Made by a program: the position numbers and the translations under genes. A stretch of DNA of 64,000 nucleotides from Rhizodiscina lignyota (taxonomy: Eukaryota > Ascomycota > Dothideomycetes > Aulographales > Rhizodiscinaceae): positions 1 to 64,000 of the forward strand of contig ML978124.1 in the NCBI GenBank assembly GCA_010015805.1, in the 5' to 3' direction. This document shows, piece by piece, positions 3,338-33,765 of the stretch (the stretch's first letter is position 1; each line of letters starts with the position of its first letter). The notes under the pieces were generated by a model. It did no database searches and was not told where the DNA came from. It was given only the letters and a program-made list of their open reading frames with translations.

Positions 3338-5079
3338 ATGAACAGCGAAGAGAAAATAAGTGTCCTTCCCGATAGCGATGATGCCAAAGACACCAAAAAT
3401 ATCTCTGGGCCAGATGCTTCCGATCCACCAGCGTCAGAGCCAACGAAGAATTACATCGAAGCTCAAAATGCCGACTTGACGCTATCAAGGACCAAAAGCG
3501 AGAAGCCGTACACAGCCTTTTCCCCCGCTGCCAAATGGTTTATCGTAGTCATGACTGCCATGGCATCATTCTTCTCACCTCTATCCGGGCAGATTTACTT
3601 CCCTGTCCTGCCAATCCTGACAAAGTCCTATCATCTATCTGAGAGTCTCATCAATGTCTCTGTTACAACGTATATGATTTTCCAAGGTCTCGCACCGAGC
3701 TTCATGGGCACATTCTCCGATGCCAGTGGCCGAAGATTGGGATATATTCTTGCCTTCACCATCTACACAGGTGCGAATATTGGTCTTGCGCTACAGGATA
3801 ACTATGCGGCCTTACTCATACTGCGGTGCCTGCAGAGCGCGGGCAGTAGTGGCACAATTTCATTCGGTTACGGTGTTATTGCTGATATCGCCACTACCGG
3901 AGAGCGAGGGAAGTACTTTGGTCCGATGGCAGCAGGTGTCTTGACAGCGCCAGCCCTCGGACCAACCATTGGTGGTCTCTTGACGCAGTTCCTTGGATGG
4001 AGATCGGTCTTCTGGTTCCTGACAATTATCAGCGGGGGCTATCTTGTGCTGTATATCATCCTCATGCCGGAAACGCATCGCGGGATTGTAGACGACGGAA
4101 GCATTGTGCCGGATCAATGGTGGCGCCAGTCACTAGTGCAATATCTAGCCGCTCGACGTCGGCTGAAGAGAATGAATGTCGACGAAAAGGACGATTATGA
4201 GCGTTCGCAGCAAGCTCTTATAGAACGGCGGCAGGCTACGAAGATCCGTTTCCCAAATCCACTTGGATCCTTTGTCATCCTTACGAACCCGGACGCATTC
4301 TGTCTCATCATGTACTCGGGAATAATGATGTTCTGTAACTTAGTTCTGATGACAAGTACGGCAACCGTGTTTCCTGGTTTGTACGGCCTCGACGAGCTGC
4401 AAGTGGGACTGTGTTTCCTGTAAGTTGGACTTGTCTTCTCGCCAATTCAATGCATCGGTACTGACTGAGACATTAAAGACCGCTCGGCATTGCTGCCACA
4501 GTCGGCTCCTTCTGCAATGGACGTCTTCTCGACTGGAATTACCGCCGCACTGCACTCAGACTAGGACTCACAGTGGACAAGAAACGTGGCGACGATCTTC
4601 GCAATTTCCCCATTGAGCGGGCTCGCCTCCAGAACGTTTTCTTCTTCCAAATATTGCAGATGGCCGCTTATCTGCCTTACGGCTGGGCCCTCCAGAAGCA
4701 TGCTTCCCTCGCGGTGCCACTCGTCTTGCAAGGTATTTTGGGCCTCTGTTTGGTGATCACATCGAATTCGATAAGCACACTACTTTCCGATATTTACCCC
4801 AGGAATGTCTCAACTGCGTCAGCAGCGTCGAACCTCATCCGCTGCAGCTTGGGTGCCATTGGAGCGGCTGTCGTAAATGATATGTTAACCGCCATGGGAT
4901 TAGGTTGGGGTTTCACCTTCATCGGCTTGCTCATGGCGGCAGCGATTGGCTTCTTGTGGGTCGAAGTGGTATGGGGAATGGGATGGCGGCAGAAGCGTTG
5001 GCAGAAACTGGAAGCGAAGCAACAAGCCGAGAAAGAGAAAAAGGCCCAGGACGAAGCCACTAAGGAGCCTGCGGCATGA
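3338..5079 (+). CDS. MFS multidrug exporter, DHA1/Qdr-like
   Basis: Two exons, 3338-4419 and 4479-5079, with a 59-base intron (GTAAGT...TTAAAG). The product is 560 residues with a hydrophilic N-terminal tail of about 65 residues, then 12 predicted membrane segments in two halves. Family marks are visible: SDASGRRLGY between TM2 and TM3 (the MFS loop motif), GPTIGGLLTQFLGWRSVFW in TM5-6 (the antiporter motif), and after the splice NGRLLDWNYRR, typical of fungal Qdr-type proton antiporters. The cytoplasmic loop between TM6 and TM7 (around PDQWWRQSLVQYLAARRRL) is of usual length and the C-terminal tail is Lys/Glu-rich. Likely role: drug or metabolite efflux at the plasma membrane. Substrate unknown. 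It is divergent from the PEBP gene. Confidence 0.9.
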
Positions 5080-8807: not shown

Positions 8808-11529
8808 ATGGACAAGGTTCAAGAATTCCACGACCAGCAGTTAAATGAGACCCAAAAAGGTCATGTTCAAACTGCTATCAACGCCGTACGTGTATTGATG
8901 TCCTCCAAGCTAATGTGGCCGTTAATTGACGTTTCAAAATAGGCGTCCCAGATGTTCGAGGCGGTAACGGGGATCATTACAGGCGGAGGTCAGTCAGGGA
9001 AAAACTCCACTGGAGCCCAGGGAGAGAATGCTACTGGAGATGGCAAGCAAGAAGCTCAAGGGGCAGAGGATCAGTCTCAAAATAAGGAGGGAGATGAGCC
9101 GAAGCCGGAGCAAACGAGCAATGACTCAGCCATCAGCGCTGATGAAGCCCAAGCAAAGGATAAGAGCCAGTCGAAAGATCAAGATGATGCGGCCGACACC
9201 AGCAAGCCAGAGCAGCAGAAAGACGTGACAGACTCCACCAATACTGAAACTCAAGAGCAGTCAAGCAAGGGTGACTCCTCTGAAGAGCCACAAGATACAT
9301 CAACGGGAGCGAAGGACGGGACGACTGCTGGCCCTTCCGATCCTGAAACGAGCAAAGACGATTCTCAGGCAGAGCCAAAAGAGCAACCTTCGGGAGCTGC
9401 CGAATTTACTGAGTCACAAGAACAACCAGAAGCTGACAAGTCTTCCGATGACAAGAAGGCCGAAAATGAAGGTGCTAGCCCCGAGGAGATGAAAGATGCC
9501 GGCATAACCAAGACAGAACCGGACCTTCTTGAAGCGTCAGAAGATAGTCAGCCCAGCAGGGAAGAAGCTCAGAAGAGGGCTGCGGAGAATGATCCAACCA
9601 GTGAAAATCAGGAGGAGACTGGCAGCCAACAAGAGTCTGAAAAGCCGGCGGAATCGAAGGATGACGATCGCGAGGAGGCGTCCAAGGATCAAACTGAAGG
9701 AGGAAACAATCAAGATGACGGCGCTAGTGGCTTGAAGGGTGCTGTCGCCGAAGCTACCCCGGAAAATAATCACGAGAATGAATCTAAAGATCGTTCTGAG
9801 GAGAGTGCCCAGGATACCTCTGAGGACAAGCCTGAACCAAAGCAGGATGAGAAGCTGAGCGGTCAGCCTGAAAGTGGAGAACAAACGTCTCAGCCCAGCG
9901 AAGAGACACCATCGCAATTCGAGGACGCTCAGGACAAGCCCGAAGAGAAGTCTGAGCAAACGCAGGCTGTGCTGGGTGAGAAGCCTGAAGAGGGAGAGCA
10001 GGCTAATCAGGACGATAAAGGAGACGAGCCTTTGACTCAAGAAGGTGGTCAAGAAAATGATAAGCCAGAGAGCGGTGAGAACAAAGTCGAGGACATCGGG
10101 ACACACAACACTGAAGGGAACCTGCCAGAAGCGTCAGAAAAGGAAGGACCCAGTGCGGACGATGCCGGTGAGAAGGCTGAGGATAATGGCCGTAAAGTGG
10201 AAAGCTCGGCGGATGCGCAGGCCGGTAAAGACGAACAACCGAGAAAAGATGAGGCAGAGGTGGGAGACCAACAGCAAGGAGATGAGGAGTCCAAGAGCGC
10301 TATGGAGTCGAGCAAACCCACCAATGCCGCCGATGCCACCGATTTGAATGATGCAAACGAACCCGATGAATCGAACGCACCCAACGATGCAAACAAAGGC
10401 AACCAGGCTAATGAAGACAATGAAACAAAGGCCGCTGGCATGAATGAAATAGAGCCAGGTCTCATAGAAGCGTCAGAGACTGAGCAGCCAAGTTCAGACG
10501 ATGCCCGACAGAAGGCCGAGGAGAACGCCCCTCAGCTCGAAGAGCCAAACAATGAGTTGGGCGGAGAGAAGCAAGATCCAGATGAAAGAGCCGGAGACGA
10601 CAAGCCAGAATCCGATAAGCAAGCCGGAGGTGACAAGTCAGAAACTGACAGACAGCCGAGTCAAGAAGATTCGAAGGCAGATGAGCAGGAAGATGTCAGT
10701 GAACCCAAACAAGTTGGTGAGACTGACAAACCCGACGATGCGAACAAAGCAAGCGACGCCAACGAAGTAAAAGACGCTGGTATGCACGAGACAGAGCCAG
10801 ACCTGTTAGAGGCGTCGCAGACTGAGCAACCGAGTTCTGACGAAGCGCGAGAGAAGGCGAAGGAGAATGCTCCAACCGTCGAAGGTTCAAGTGATCAGCA
10901 AGGCGAAGGCGACAAACTACAGGACGATGAGCCGAGAAATGAGTCCGCCCCGGGAGACCTGCAGCAGCAGGACGAGAGTTCTGCGGAAGTTAAGGAACCT
11001 GGCAGCGCAGAGTCCCAGGGCGACGGCATACCTGGAGCATATCAATCTGGAGAGAAGGAAACAATAAAGACTGATGACTCGGCTCCCGAAGCGGCCGACT
11101 CTCAAGATCCCGAAACGTCCAAGCCAGATGCTGATAACGTCGAACCAAAAACTGAAGACTCGCAATCGAAGGGAACAGATCCCAACTGGAATCGCCAGGA
11201 GTCCTTACTTGAAGCCGGCGAGTCTGCGCCACAAGGATCTGACCCCAGCAGCGCGCGCGAGTTACCCGATCGCTCTAACACCGGAGATACTGGAGACGCT
11301 ACAAACTTGAGCAAGGTAGATACACCGATGGCGGATCAGCAGCTCAATTCTGGTGATGGGATTTCTGCGGGAAACGATGTGGAGGAGGAAGATGATGGTA
11401 CCGCAGGTAAGCGAGCCTAAGTCTACATAAGATGCGTGCATGCTAATTGTCGGAGAAGATTCCTCTGGGAAGAAGGAGAAGTTCACGGACAAGATGAAGA
11501 GGAAGATCAAAGAAGTGCGCCAGCACTAA
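8808..11529 (+). CDS. large acidic disordered repeat protein (LEA/hydrophilin-like)
   Basis: Three exons: 8808-8885, 8943-11406 and 11459-11529, with introns of 57 and 52 bases (GTACGT...AATAG; GTAAGC...GAAG). The product is about 870 residues. Only the ends look structured: an N-terminal helix (EFHDQQLNETQKGHVQTAIN) and a basic C-terminus (GKKEKFTDKMKRKIKEVRQH). Everything between is Glu/Asp/Ser/Gln/Pro/Lys-rich with almost no hydrophobic residues. Four copies of a ~35-residue module are clear, near 9490, 10093, 10429 and 10769. Each has EPDLLEAS-like then QPSSDEAR-like then KAEENAP-like blocks; a partial fifth lies near 11195. The composition recalls stress-protective hydrophilins, but no LEA motif is proven. 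The last acceptor is a GAGAAG tandem, so two forms differing by one residue are possible. No signal peptide or membrane segment. Confidence 0.8.
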
Positions 11530-19674: not shown

Positions 19675-21827
19675 ATTGAAGAAGTTCGGATGGCAAAATT
19701 GCTGACTCTAATAGAATGGAAATGATACAGAAACACCGAGTCCCGCTATTCTCCACATGCGAGAGCGTCGGTGAGATTTAGACTTGACATGAGTAGGCCG
19801 TCCATCTTCTAGCTTCCCATATAATGATTGAAATGATACGGTATACTGGTCCCCCTATTCAGCACTATTATAGACGCGATGGCCGAGGGGCCATTAAACG
19901 TCACACTGAACAGTCGGAGGAAATATCTCAGATTTTGGATTCTTCGCGATGGTGGTTAGAAGTAAGTGCCTTCTATTTCTATTTCTGCAATTTGTTGTAT
20001 CGCAACGTTCAGGTTTCCAAGAGTGATTTCATCCAAGTTTATAGCCAGTGAAGCTTACAATTGGGATGCGTAGGAACGTGTTTATGTATAACTGGGCCGT
20101 GACGAGCTCGATTTGTATTGATTGAAGAAACAGAATATCCGATGTCCCGTATAATACCCGAAATGATACAGAAATACCACATCCATCTATTCTATGCTTG
20201 CAAGAGCATCAGTAAAGAGTCGACTTGCTATGTGTTGGCGCGCATTTACGCGTAGAACGGCGCTTTGATAAATTAGAGATTATGGTCTACATGGCTGAGG
20301 CTCCGACGATGGATAAAATGTCGTAGACACTAGTAAGTCTTCCTAATTGCAACGTGTGAGAGCATTGGCAGAGCGCTGAACTGATATATGCTGGAGCGTA
20401 TTTATGCGTAAGACCGGACTTTGAGGAATTGGACATACCTTATACAAAGAGACAGAACAGGTGGTCACTAGCAGAGCACCCAAAACGACACAGCTCTGCT
20501 CGCTTCTTCCAGATACATAGAATTTCTTGAAATCTCCCAACTTAAGCCCTTAACAGTAAGCTTAAACAGCCTCTCATCTTCGCCTAGAATCCACAGGAAT
20601 GTGAAGTGAATTTAGAAAGCGTCCGTTGGCTTGCAATGCCAATAGCAAGTCTAGGCCCATCGTCGGCTTAACTGCCGAATGGTCGATAGGCATGCAATGT
20701 GAGCCAGTCATTGGATCCGGGGTTGGTCGCAGGGGTCGTTGACGAGTTAAATTACAGTACAATTACTGCTCTCCGCCTCCTTATTCCTCTGTAAATTACG
20801 TCTAGAAAACACGGCTTCAGACCAATGAATGCCTCAAATCCTACCGGGCCGGGCCGTGCCCCGATTACTTGTGTGCGCCTTGACGCGCTAGTGGCTTTAA
20901 GAACGGTTCAGTCATGTACTTTAGACCACGCAATCATATAATACACAATATCACCGTCACCCTCTCTTAGAACCCCTGCTCTCAGCGAGCGCGCGGGCGG
21001 AGTGATTAGAGCTCCGGAAGTGGGCAGCGGTGGTAAGTGGGTAGCGTTGGTAATGGGGAGCAAGCCAGAAAGTGAGATCCAAAGGACTGGTGCGGCTAAG
21101 GAGCCGAAGCCTGAAGGGTCCTTAGTCCCTGCAGATGTTCACTTCTCAGCCAGCCAACTATTGGACTCGCGGACAAGACTCCGAAAGAGATCGACTCCGC
21201 GCAGATTTAGCTCCTCTACGGCGAATTGCAAAATCGGACGCCGCCATGACGTCACCAAGCTGATGCAGAGAAACCTGCTTGGGGTACGCCCTCTTAAGCA
21301 CTCAGACGCCTTTCCACTGTACAGATCCAAACCATGCCTGCGCGGGGTCCAATCGACGAGCGCGTACTACCTCTCTCATCTACGACAGGCTTAACATGAA
21401 TTATTGAATGTCTGTACAAGATGACAGCTACGTTACGGAGTAGCAACCACCTGATCCTAGAAAGAAAAGAGCTCTCACCTGAGACACTGCAGGCCGTGTC
21501 TTGAGCTAGTGAGTACTGCGTCGTATCTGAGGGCTTTCATGCGGCTACAGGGTCCCTCAGTCGCTTCGTCTCCCCTACGCCGTCCACTCGTTGTAGAGTA
21601 AAACTTGATTCTCACCACGCGTCCCAAAATGATTGTGACGCCCTGACGCCTCTTGAGGCACGGAGGGGCCTCCGTCATCTGCTTCACTCACTAGAAATAC
21701 TCGGCTACGTACTGACCATCGCTCATAACCCGAATTTTAACGCACGCTTTCAAAGTTCATCAATTTTCCCTCGTTCTGCAAAACGTCTCCCCCACACAAT
21801 ATCAAAAGGGTCGATTCTTTCGTCTTC
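19675..21827. other. 2.1 kb gene-poor stretch with degenerate repeats
   Basis: No convincing gene. Up to 20440 it contains several diverged copies of the same segments (listed separately). A TACGGAGTA motif lies near 21432. The longest open frame (about 21002-21394) lacks an ATG and any recognisable residues. The last 200 bases should hold the promoter of the gene at 21828. Confidence 0.5.
19718..20445. repeat. degenerate dispersed repeat copies
   Basis: GAAATGATACAGAAA-like segments occur at 19719, 19829 and 20160. The first and last are followed at similar distance by a (C/T)TGC(G/A)AGAGC(A/G)TC(A/G)GT-like motif (19755, 20197). A second pair, GCGCGCATTTACGCGTAGAA (20238) and GGAGCGTATTTATGCGTAAG (20391), each follows a GAGAGCAT or AAGAGCAT block. 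Another copy of the CTTGCGAGAGCATCAG motif lies at 44327-44347, far away. This looks like an old, mutated repeat family without coding potential. Confidence 0.6.
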
Positions 21828-22301
21828 ATGGCTGATTCGAACAGGTAGGCCTACAATTTTCCTTCCCTGCCCTTTCCTGGCTCCGAACTAACTGCCTCCA
21901 TTGCAGAAGCACCGATGTGCAGGGCGATTCGACAAGCACAAACGACGCCGTCAATAATGTAACCAAGACGAGGCCCAGAAAAATATCCGGGGCCCTCCAA
22001 AGACAAACAATTGAGGAACCCGATGACGAAAATGACGACGACATACTAGCAACAATGGGCCCCACCCGAAACCCGGCGTCGCGCCGCCGCATAGTGCCGG
22101 TACACCAGTCACGCATTTCAGACAGACCCCCAAAGGTCGGTGAGAAGGACAGCAGTTTAAAGATCAAGATCGAGCTGGATCTGGAAGTCGAGGTAGAGAT
22201 TTACGCGCGCGTCAAGGGCGATGTGACCATTGGGTTGATGTAGTGCCCAGGTCGAGATCTACGCACGAGTCAAAGGCGACGTCACCATTGGTTTATTGTG
22301 A
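21828..22301 (+). CDS. small conserved-type protein with tandemly duplicated terminal exon
   Basis: Exon 1 is 21828-21844, the intron 21845-21906 (GTAGGC...TTGCAG), and exon 2 starts at 21907. Read straight on, exon 2 ends at the TAG at 22241-22243 and gives 117 residues. If 22193-22250 is removed as a second GT-AG intron, the frame continues into 22251-22301, ends at TGA, and again gives 117 residues. The protein is polar and disordered up to about residue 95, then ends in a strand-rich tail, KIKIELDLEVEVEIYARVKG and on to DVTIGL plus Met or Leu. I recall similar tails on other fungal proteins of unknown function, but I cannot name the family. Nothing points to a membrane or secretion. Confidence 0.7.
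22193..22301 (+). repeat. tandem duplication forming an optional intron
   Basis: Copy 1 (22193-22243) and copy 2 (22251-22301) are each 51 bases, separated by TGCCCAG. Copy 1 starts with GTAGAG and the spacer ends in CAG, so copy 1 plus spacer (58 bases) is a formal intron of phase 0. Of 16 sense codons nine differ by a silent change, one gives Met/Leu, and the stops are TAG and TGA. Confidence 0.9.
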
Positions 22302-23069
22302 GATGTGAGTCGGACCTCGTTCGCCAGTCCTATCTTAGTAATATAAGAATAGTACGACTTAGCTCACTCTCAAAGCTCCTCTATGGCATCACAGCAATGC
22401 ATGTCTACTCTTGTTGTACTCGCGCCGATTTTCACCCGCCTGTGTATCTGTGGTTTGGAGCTGAAGGGTGCCAGGATGGGGGAAAGGGTCTTCGCAATGT
22501 ATCTAGTCCTTCATAACAGTAATTGAGGGAGTTTCTTCCGCAAGTGCACGACAAAGCACCAGTTCACTCAAAAGGATGAACAATTATCTAACACTTGGGA
22601 CTTTGGATCCTGCATAGACTGGCGCTATAAAATCTTAAATTGAGCTGCTGGAAACGAACTTCGCTCTGTTAAAATGGGTGCGCCTTCAACCATGATATCC
22701 GGCAAGCTGAGAAAACGTAATGCAAGGCTGGAAACTGGATTCGCCCCCAGCTCCCCGGTTCTCCATCTCTAGTCTTCCCGAAACGGAGTAGCGCATCTGA
22801 GCGGCCCCGCTATTTAGCGTCGACGAGAAAGAAAGAGGACCGCGACTTTGCGATCGAGCAGCTGAGTCTAGACTCTACATACTTCCAGCTACAAATCGCT
22901 TAATATACCAATCTTCGCAGAACATTGATCTTCCACTCTCCTCGACACCAAATTGATAAACAGAATATCTCGAGCTCTGATCCTGAGCTTACGGCCACGG
23001 CCTGGACAGTTGTCGGTCCCTTCGCGTTTCGCCCTCTGCCTGCGCTGGCGATCACCCAAGGAAAAAAAT
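22302..23069. other. gene-free stretch
   Basis: About 770 bases between two small genes on the plus strand. It holds the downstream part of the duplicated-exon gene and the promoter of the next gene. No RNA gene or repeat was recognised. Confidence 0.45.
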
Positions 23070-23784
23070 ATGGTCCTCGGTATTTTAACTTCTATAGCAG
23101 CCTGCCCCGCGATCATTGGCACCACTGAGGCTGTCCGTCAGGGTCAAAAGACGAGCGCCAAAGAGAAGCACAGAGGTCTCAAGTCGAACCTGTTCGTTTC
23201 GTGCTCCACGACCACGCGAAGTGGCAGAGAAGTAAACGGCAGCGAAGTAGTCCTGCAGAACAATAAGGTGCGTTGTTCTCACAAAGCCTACTCTAAGCGA
23301 GCAGTTCGCTCGTCTTTAGATCCTGATAGCGACAATCCTGCAGCTGTACCTTTCGACGCCTTCGCCCGACTTCCCAGACGGGAGCGAAGGCGACCATCCT
23401 TTCGCAGGCTATTTCCTTCCCTACCCAGATCAGAACTGGGGCCGTCTGGGGGAGGGCTTCGTCTCCACCATCTCCGACGAACCGCCCCAGCTCAACTGGA
23501 TATATGTGGACGAGGATACCCACGAAGTCAAATATGGAAATCGAGAAGAGTCCGAACCTCACGTCATTGGGCCGTGGGATTGCACACCGGTGGATAAGAG
23601 GGTCACGCTAGAGGGCTGGGAAGGCTTTTTGGCTGTCAGAGATGCGCCGGGGGAATGGGCGCTTTATTTTGACAGAGATGATGATGGCTTAAAAGAAATT
23701 GTCTCTCATAGTAAGCGAAAGGTAGAAGTCGAATTAATACGAAAGGAGAGGAGACAGCGCAAACCGAAGCCAGAGGATGATTGA
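23070..23784 (+). CDS. conserved small fungal protein of unknown function
   Basis: Exon 1 is 23070-23267. Exon 2 starts at 23344 (CCTGCAG acceptor) or, less likely, at 23320 (TTTAG); both keep the frame and give 212 or 220 residues. The N-terminus MVLGILTSIAACPAIIGTTE and the later block HPFAGYFLPYPDQNWGRLG, then LNWIYVDEDTHEVKYGNR, HVIGPWDCT and WALYFDRDDDG, form a pattern I recognise as a widespread ascomycete family without assigned function. The first 20 residues are hydrophobic and could be a short membrane anchor. The C-terminal 30 residues are Lys/Arg/Glu-rich. I prefer the downstream acceptor because NNKLYL fits the family better than the longer form. Confidence 0.8.
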
Positions 23785-31023: not shown

Positions 31024-33765
31024 TCAATATACAAAGTACGTTTGCGTGAGTGGCAAAGATGTGGAAGGCTCGGCGGTGCACACCATCCCGTCCGCTTCAA
31101 CAGTCTAGCAAAGCATCGTTAGCATCGCCATTTCCCTTTTAAGGAAATTTCAGAAAACTCACATAGCTCTCCGGATCAACTTTCATCTTCGGTTGCAAGT
31201 CGTTAAACTTCATATCCTTCTTTCCAATCTTTCGACATTCCTTCACAGCCTCAATTCTCTTCCGTAAGCCGTACTTCTCCACAGCACCCGACTCAATACT
31301 CGCCTGCGACACAAAGGTGACGCTCATGCCCGGCACAAACGTCGCGAACATCGGCCTCATAATAATCGGCTCGACAGTCGGGATACTCGCGTTTGGATCG
31401 CCCATCTGCGCGTAGCTGATCATTCCGCTCTTCACCACCAGGCTCGGCTTCGTGCCGAAGTTCGCTGGATTCCAGATGACGAGATCCGCTAGTTTTCCGG
31501 GCTCAATGCTACCGATTAGATACCCCATGCCTTGCGTTATTGCCGGATTGATTGTGTATTTCGAAATGTACCGCTTCACCCTAAAATTATCCGCATCGGT
31601 GCCTTCATCTTCTTTCAGGGTACCACGCTGCACTTTGTTCTTGTGAGCGGTATTCCACGTCCGCAGGATGACTTCTCCGCATCGGCCCATAGCCTGTGAG
31701 TCGGACGACATCATGCTGATTGCGCCTAGGTCATGAAGAACATCCTCCGCAGCAATCGTCTCCGCTCTGATACGGCTCTCCGCAAACGCGACGTCCTCGG
31801 GAATATTTCTACTCAAGTGGTGGCACACCATCAGCATATCCAAATGCTCGTCTAGCGTATTTCTGGTATATGGCCTTGTCGGGTTGGTTGAGGATGGCAG
31901 CACATTGTCGTGTTCGACCACCGAGATGATGTCGGGGGCATGTCCGCCTCCGGCGCCTTCGGTATGATAAGTGTGAATGGCCCTGTTCTTGAACGCTTTG
32001 ATTGTCTGCTCAACGAAGCCAGACTCATTCAGCGTGTCAGTGTGAATGAGACATTGAACATCATACTCGTCGCACACTGAAAGACAGGTATCGATCGCAG
32101 CAGGTGTTGTACCCCAATCTTCATGAAGCTTCAGACCACAAACACCTGCTTCGCACTGCTCTTGCAGACCCTTCTTCATGCTATCATTGCCTTTTCCGGT
32201 AATGCCGAAGTTCAGCGGCAACTCATCACAAGCTTGCAGCATCTGCTTAATGTGGTTCGCGCCCGGCGTGCAAGTCGTCGCATTCGTGCCAGTACTCGGT
32301 CCAGTACCTCCTCCAAGCATCGTGGTGATGCCCGCAGCAATGGCTTCGTATGCTTGCTGTGGACAGATAAAGTGGATGTGGGTGTCGAATCCACCTGCTG
32401 TAACAATCTTGTGCTCGCCGGCAATCACATCTGTGCAGCTTCCCACAACCAACTTCGGATCTACACCATCCATTACATCTGGATTGCCTGCCTTGCCAAC
32501 ACCCGCGATGACGCCGTCCTTGATGCCAATGTCGGCTTTGTAGATACCACTCCAGTCCACGATCAGCGCATTCGTGATGACGGTGTCCAGGCACTCAGAA
32601 TCAGGTCGACCGGATGCTTGGCCCATGCCCTCACGAAGTGTCTTACCGCCGCCGAAGGAGCACTCGTCGCCGTAATGCGTGAAATCCTTTTCGACTTTGA
32701 TCCACAAGTCCGTCGCTCCCAAGCGCACGAGGTCGCCGGTCGTGGGGCCAAACATGCTGCAATAAGCTTCGCGGTCCATGGAAGCCGTGTCGATGTGCGC
32801 CGAGTCACCTGCTGGCTCTGGAGCGTGGAGGAAGCCACCCTGTTGCAGCTTTTCGACGATGCTCTCTGCGATGGATGTATCGAGAATATGACCCGGTGCA
32901 ATGCTATTGCCTCCATTGATGATCTGGTTCCCCCCAATCTGCACAAGCGTCACAGTCTTGCTGTCTCCAGGCTCGAAACGGACGGACGTGCCAGCTGGGA
33001 TGTCCAAACGGTATCCATGCGCTCTAATGCGGTCGAATTCAAGCTGCGGGTTAGTCTCGATGAAGTGGTAATGCGAGCCGACCTGGATTGGCCTGTCGCC
33101 CTTACTAACAACCTTCAACTGGATCCTCTTCCGTCCCTCGCTAAGCTTAATCCTCCCTTCCTTCACACAGACGACCGCTCCGGGTTGCTTCTTCGGCTCG
33201 TAGTCTGCTGGATCTGGGAGCGGGAATTTGTCCTGCGATGGGATAGGCAAGAAGCTACCATACAGTGCTTTCTCCAGATCCCCATCATCCGAGCTGACGG
33301 GATTGTGTACGGTGACAAGGTAGGTGCCGCTTGGAAACGTGCCCTCGATCATGAGCTCCGAAAGTGAACTCACGACTGATGGAAGAACATGTCGTCGGCC
33401 GAGCATTTGCTTGCCGATGGACATGAGATCGGCGACTGTGTGGTTGCCATCGCGGACGAGCTATTGAGGATGTTTAGTTGAATTTGTTGTTCAAGTGCTC
33501 GGACATGCGGAAGAAGGGATACCTCTTGCAGATTGTTCGCTATGAGTGCCTGTCCCTGTTAACACGGAAAGTCTCAAAATACGTTTATATTCATACCGTA
33601 GCTTCAGCATGATTTAATTTGACTCCTCTAGCCAGTCTTCTCTGTGCAAGAAGTCCCAATTGCGAAATCACGAACTTGTCAAGCTGTTGAACCTCTTATC
33701 AGCAAACGTTCGTTAAGGTCATTGCCTGGGAGTGGTTCGAATACCTCCTTTGGCACGAGATGCAT
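31024..33765 (-). CDS. URE1: urease, fused single-chain fungal type
   Basis: Five exons: 33745-33765, 33597-33683, 33523-33549, 31163-33460 and 31024-31104; introns 61, 47, 62 and 58 bases. The joined frame gives 837 residues, the usual fungal length, with gamma, beta and alpha parts in one chain. The N-terminus [17 protein letters not shown] and the C-terminus [10 protein letters not shown] appear only after splicing. Nickel-site residues are present: the His pair in [12 protein letters not shown], the lysine to be carbamylated in [11 protein letters not shown], histidines in [13 protein letters not shown] and [15 protein letters not shown], the flap MVCHHLS and the aspartate in [12 protein letters not shown]. 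The enzyme splits urea to ammonia and carbamate in the cytosol and needs accessory proteins, none of which lies here. Two exons are very short (21 and 27 bases). Intact. Confidence 0.97.

Follow-up and report, generated by a model that had tools for sequence, protein, structure and literature searches.

Gene content of the window

The window, by which we mean the whole 64-kb stretch of DNA that was analysed, includes genes assigned by Pfam to a HET-domain protein, a fused urease, an Ada3 protein, a P450 and an MFS transporter. Its introns are short with CTRAY branch sites, and genes and introns together indicate a filamentous ascomycete as the source. An Rfam match to 5_ureB_sRNA (RF02514, 115 bits) was located at 32344-32638 (+), with the urease gene on the other strand. 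The bacterial 5_ureB_sRNA is antisense to ureB, and conservation of the urease coding sequence, rather than a fungal RNA, most likely accounts for the match. A frame of 822 codons at 8952-11420 (+) was of very low complexity, dominated by E, D, K, Q, S and A. It contained imperfect internal repeats such as EPDLLEAS...QPSS, and the composition profile showed an A excess.

A small gene with a duplicated tail

A tandem duplication of the tail was located at the end of a small fungal gene on the + strand (21828-22301), as read directly and recomputed. The features of this region were as follows.

21828-21844, +: exon 1 of the small gene, 17 bases, ATGGCTGATTCGAACAG, with a presumed start codon
21845-21906, +: intron 1, 62 bases, GTAGGC...CTAAC...TTGCAG, phase 2
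21907-22192, +: exon 2 as far as the putative donor, ending ...SSLKIKIELDLEVE and followed by both copies
22193-22243, +: copy 1, 51 bases, VEIYARVKGDVTIGLM and stop TAG, the end of the frame if unspliced
22193-22250, +: putative intron, 58 bases, phase 0, GTAGAG...TGCCCAG, made up of copy 1 and TGCCCAG, with a very weak donor
22235-22239, +: TTGAT, the sole YTRAY branch-site match of the putative intron; the ATG that differs from copy 2 starts with its final two bases
22244-22250, +: spacer TGCCCAG, 7 bases long, directly following the first stop and providing the acceptor
22251-22301, +: copy 2, 51 bases, VEIYARVKGDVTIGLL and stop TGA, in a frame readable only after splicing

Copies 1 and 2 were identical at 39 of 51 bases. 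The twelve differences consisted of nine silent third-position changes, a single replacement (ATG/TTG, M/L) and two changes within the stop codons (TAG/TGA), and the silent differences fell in 9 of the 16 sense codons, with the copies using different codons for the same tail. The copies start AGGTAGAG and AGGTCGAG, that is, AG|GT is duplicated at the edges of the repeat. The spacing of the repeat (58) equals the length of the putative intron (58), and its removal restores the 117-residue reading. With exon 1 and intron 1 as modelled, the retained and spliced readings were both 117 residues long and differed in the last residue alone. The first-pass annotation had described two 51-base tandem copies of which the first is a formal 58-base phase-0 intron, products of equal length differing in one terminal residue, and nine silently different codons with a stop of its own in each copy; reading, recomputation and a recount reproduced all of these. 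The product of the small gene had no Pfam or PDB match, and a structure prediction for the frame 21908-22240 from a single sequence was uninformative (pLDDT 62.9, pTM 0.17).

Homology of the copies and searches for relatives

Ungapped 51-base comparisons within 21801-22800, at distances of less than 300 bases, gave a best match of 41, whereas 60 first-order random sequences of this region reached 31 at most, and chance similarity of the copies was rejected on this comparison. The 64-kb window had two occurrences of a degenerate pattern covering part of the tail, and none was found in 100 shuffles. The copies are homologous without gaps from AG|GT to within the stop codons; that the duplication took place in situ is what we infer.

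A tblastn search of the 64-kb window with the 30-residue tail recovered the two copies (E 3.5e-15 and 3.8e-7), the next match being at 0.18, and no third copy of the tail was seen. The whole protein gave 16 pattern-matching stretches in viral contigs and no relatives among them by tblastn. Three degenerate tail patterns searched in viral contigs gave 5, 0 and 0 loci and one searched in genome contigs gave 12; the 17 loci, on contigs labelled bacterial or viral, showed on translation no likeness to the tail beyond the short core of the pattern. No fungal relatives turned up in the viral and genome contig collections searched, and peptide strings of the tail were not found in print in the literature searched.

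Selection on the two copies

By the Nei-Gojobori method the copies contain 11.8 silent and 36.2 replacement sites, giving a pS of 0.76 and a pN of 0.028. Five of the ten sense differences were transversions and all nine silent ones were at third positions; the chance of at least nine silent changes among ten neutral ones was 1.8e-5 to 2.2e-4, varying with the copy and the transition bias. Read in its own frame, each copy had the score of a coding sequence, and both shifted frames scored negative. Independent codings drawn from the codon usage of the window were expected to differ at 9.7 of the 15 shared codons and nine differed (P(<=9)=0.44), so the silent sites keep no memory of a common origin.

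Simulations in which one copy was neutral and ten of 16 codons differed gave no pair with one replacement or fewer, either in 1365 pairs or in 1406 (0 of 2771 in total), and where copy 2 was the neutral one the simulated pairs carried 2 to 10 replacement codons, mostly 6 to 8. The proposal that one copy had been unconstrained since an in-place duplication was therefore rejected. The few replacements relative to the simulations point to protein-level selection on both copies while they diverged, and to judge by these comparisons both have been under such selection, exerted in this gene or, for a copy that arrived later, elsewhere. It does not follow that they diverged side by side, as the divergence could have taken place in two separate genes before these were joined. 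The earlier claim that both copies had long been translated and selected thus stands as to strong protein-level constraint on both, though a copy that arrived later may have been constrained elsewhere. The accompanying remark that the event had been caught with both outcomes still usable hints at a recent origin and is not supported as worded; silent divergence is saturated, and the event is consequently either old or a joining of copies already diverged.

Splice signals at the putative intron

Donors were scored with a published Fusarium matrix from 2022 introns, as given in the available part of its source (PMC5677156), which may not fit this fungus. An intron search free of donor requirements returned 19 non-overlapping candidates for GT and 9 to 14 for each of the 15 other dinucleotides, so most candidates not filtered by donor are false. 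A donor-filtered search returned 11 candidate introns, nine of which were scored (+1.8 to +5.1 bits) and two of which (4465-4571 and 23268-23343) were left out as doubtful. These candidates had been picked partly by their donors and do not form an independent yardstick, hence the reliance on the Fusarium matrix. A stricter search returned six candidates and missed intron 1, which has a CTAAC branch site 15 bases from its end and a donor of +1.8 bits on the Fusarium matrix.

Upstream of copy 2 its frame reads TGA (22236-22238), TGT, AGT, GCC, CAG with no ATG from there to the copy 2 stop, so that copy 2 can be read only by splicing; the unspliced reading stops at 22243. An enumeration of GT-AG pairs joining exon 2 in frame to copy 2 gave 22, and the pair 22193-22250 was the one that leaves the entire tail unchanged. 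Its donor GTAGAG scored -5.3 bits on the Fusarium matrix, which may not fit the host, and was about average for a random GT of the window, 51% of 6951 GTs on both strands scoring above it. It departs from the canonical fungal donor GTRNGT, and G at +4, A at +5 and G at +6 were present in 4, 3 and 4% of the 2022 Fusarium introns according to the part of the source available (PMC5677156). Efficient splicing at GTAGAG is not predicted from these scores. The poor donor is forced by the coding of Val-Glu, which permits only GTNGAR, and GTAGAG is the second best of the eight spellings.

The acceptor side was ordinary, with CCCAG, TTGAT 12 bases before the intron end and a length of 58, and agreed with the canonical fungal signals, CTRAY or TTRAY for the branch site and YAG for the acceptor. 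TTRAY is a minor branch site in Fusarium, at 3.96% in the table and 4.99% in the text of the paper as available (PMC5677156). The TAG of the copy 1 stop ends just 5 bases from the branch A, which would make CAG the likelier acceptor. Use of TAG at 22243, for a 51-base intron, was rejected, as it leads in another frame to an unrelated 90-residue extension that ignores the conserved frame of copy 2.

Two further features of copy 1 resemble those of an intron. Its first Val codon is GTA and that of copy 2 is GTC; GTA is the rarest Val codon in 18 frames of the window (11%, a chance of 0.11 for this choice), and A is the preferred base at donor position +3 in Fusarium introns as far as the accessible part of PMC5677156 describes them. 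The sole residue change, ATG for TTG after TTG, creates TTGAT, the only YTRAY of the putative intron, and the sequence of copy 2 followed by the same spacer had no YTRAY in range. With the branch A allowed 8-35 bases before the intron end, YTRAY arose in 0 of 20,000 random recodings of the tail ending LL and in 56% of 20,000 recodings of the tail ending LM. The GTA choice and the branch site, noticed after looking, would be modest signs towards an intron, and the L/M change may have run in either direction.

The first-pass annotation had proposed intron gain by tandem duplication of an AG|GT-bearing segment. This agrees with the tandem copies, their AG|GT start and a spacing equal to the intron length, but is weakened by the donor at -5.3 bits.

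Explanations for the tandem tail

The reading that we favour, tentatively and at somewhat less than even chances, is that the tail was duplicated in tandem at AG|GT long ago and that the result persists as an intron which is weakly spliced and neutral for the protein. The last coding segment including its stop would have been duplicated in tandem at AG|GT, leaving copy 1 between GT and AG and removable as a 58-base intron. Removal would give the tail from copy 2, while retention would give the tail from copy 1 with translation ended by the copy 1 stop, and the protein would be the same either way except for L/M at the last residue. Splicing would probably be inefficient, with a bad donor imposed by the Val-Glu of copy 1, and with retention free of cost this would be tolerated. 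Both tails would have been preserved, through selection on either outcome, until the silent sites were saturated. Short direct repeats are prone to loss or homogenisation, so the survival of the copies to saturation is itself surprising.

Two donors above 1.5 bits were located 3' of copy 2 in 22291-22700, GTGAGT at 22305 and GTACGA at 22352. The first of these (22305-22310, +, +3.0 bits) is a good donor adjoining the second stop. Neither was combined with YAG and YTRAY at a length of 42-139 in 22291-22700, and exposure of the retained form to nonsense-mediated decay (NMD) through an intron in the 3' UTR was set aside. With no further intron in that search the retained form should escape junction-dependent decay, as predicted from the sequence. 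Fungal NMD can act without junctions. RNA structure over the repeat was likewise set aside as an explanation, since the fold of 22151-22320 had a z-score of -0.89 and 40 of 200 shuffles folded equally well or better.

An extension of the favoured reading, speculative and on the unlikely side, is an old fail-safe intron conserved in the lineage. It would encode the same tail and stop as the exon behind it, making splice failure harmless; both tails would be selected, the donor would be kept weak by coding, and the poorly spliced intron would perhaps be kept for an effect at the mRNA level.

The main rival, unlikely but a serious competitor, is that copy 2 came from another gene, either a paralogue that had diverged or a gene of a related species. 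It would have been the final exon there, complete with the acceptor TGCCCAG, and would recently have been joined behind an intact gene. The silent differences would then be older than the joining and copy 2 would now be an undecayed 3' UTR. Silent differences at the level of independent codings (9 against 9.7 expected, P(<=9)=0.44) agree with this, as do homology that begins exactly at a plausible exon edge and the very poor present donor; splicing at present is not required. The proposal nevertheless requires a second gene with 15 consecutive identical residues, part of which by chance came to lie in the right order 7 bases after the stop, and no further copy was found within the 64-kb window.

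It is distinctly improbable that the order of events was reversed. In that case the last exon would be preceded by an old phase-0 intron, normal in this gene family, and copy 1 would be a read-through tail added later, for instance when the gene recombined with a cDNA or with an intronless relative. The exon edge coincides with the limits of homology, and CCCAG with TTGAT at 12 bases makes an ordinary acceptor side, yet just 7 bases of the old intron would be left.

Less credible again is the use of copy 2 through another donor in exon 2. GTCGGT (22136-22141, +) is in phase 0 and, at +0.3 bits, scores higher than GTAGAG with its -5.3. Through an unchanged acceptor and branch site it would join copy 2 in frame by a 115-base intron and give a shorter isoform PPK|VEIYARVKGDVTIGLL without LKIKIELDLEVE, and the copies would be alternative tails of different proteins. 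GTCGGT is still a weak donor, however, and the isoform loses a patterned segment directly joined to the tail, with nothing else to indicate it. A plain relic of an in-place duplication that was never spliced, with copy 1 the sole functional end and copy 2 an unconstrained 3' UTR, suits the weak donor but is very improbable given that none of the 1365 simulated pairs with copy 2 neutral had one replacement or fewer.

Comparison with known systems

Intron gain by tandem duplication follows the model of Rogers (1989), with ATP2A1 as the example of Hellsten et al. 2011, both as recounted in the available parts of PMC4974935 and PMC3443670. As in those accounts, an exon segment bearing AG|GT lies in tandem, the intron equals the repeat spacing and the protein would be unchanged by the gain. 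The present case differs from what these accounts describe in that a stop codon lies inside the duplicated piece, that retention would be neutral though 58 is not a multiple of three, that the copies are saturated at silent sites, and that the intron is putative and read from the sequence alone.

Two fungal introns of this kind, SPOG_01682 and SOCG_00815, are described for fission yeasts in the portion of PMC3629103 available, and they too are built from repeated sequence of the neighbouring exon, at a proto-splice site that is AGGC in the fission yeasts. Their repeats are of 24 bases and the introns lie within coding sequence. Spliced ESTs are described for them, one of which disagrees with the annotation of the intron. 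Mutually exclusive tandem duplicated exons such as those of Dscam, as far as our sources cover them, resemble the present case in that duplicated exons are used singly, but they diversify the protein, whereas here the copies are kept alike and the choice would be between retention and splicing.

Among the matches listed, by titles and the beginnings of abstracts, no intron was found that gives the same protein on retention and on splicing. Weak new splice sites are shared by the putative intron with new introns in Drosophila and with those backed by NMD, in the extracts at hand. For Drosophila introns from tandem duplication, retention is described as a possible temporary or permanent alternative if the size is a multiple of three (PMC2891723, in part), and weakly spliced new introns are described as backed by NMD (PMC2809761, in part). 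These passages name two ways out of an open problem, namely the persistence of a new intron that is badly spliced until its signals have improved. Harmless retention would here be due to the duplicated stop and tail rather than to a multiple-of-three size or to NMD. The locus would be informative in that the silent sites of each copy keep a separate record and the sequence shows Val-Glu coding in conflict with the donor. If the putative intron is unspliced the locus would still be an unusual conserved tandem tail; if it is spliced, what would be new relative to these known systems is a third route, in which a duplicated stop makes a kept 58-base intron neutral.
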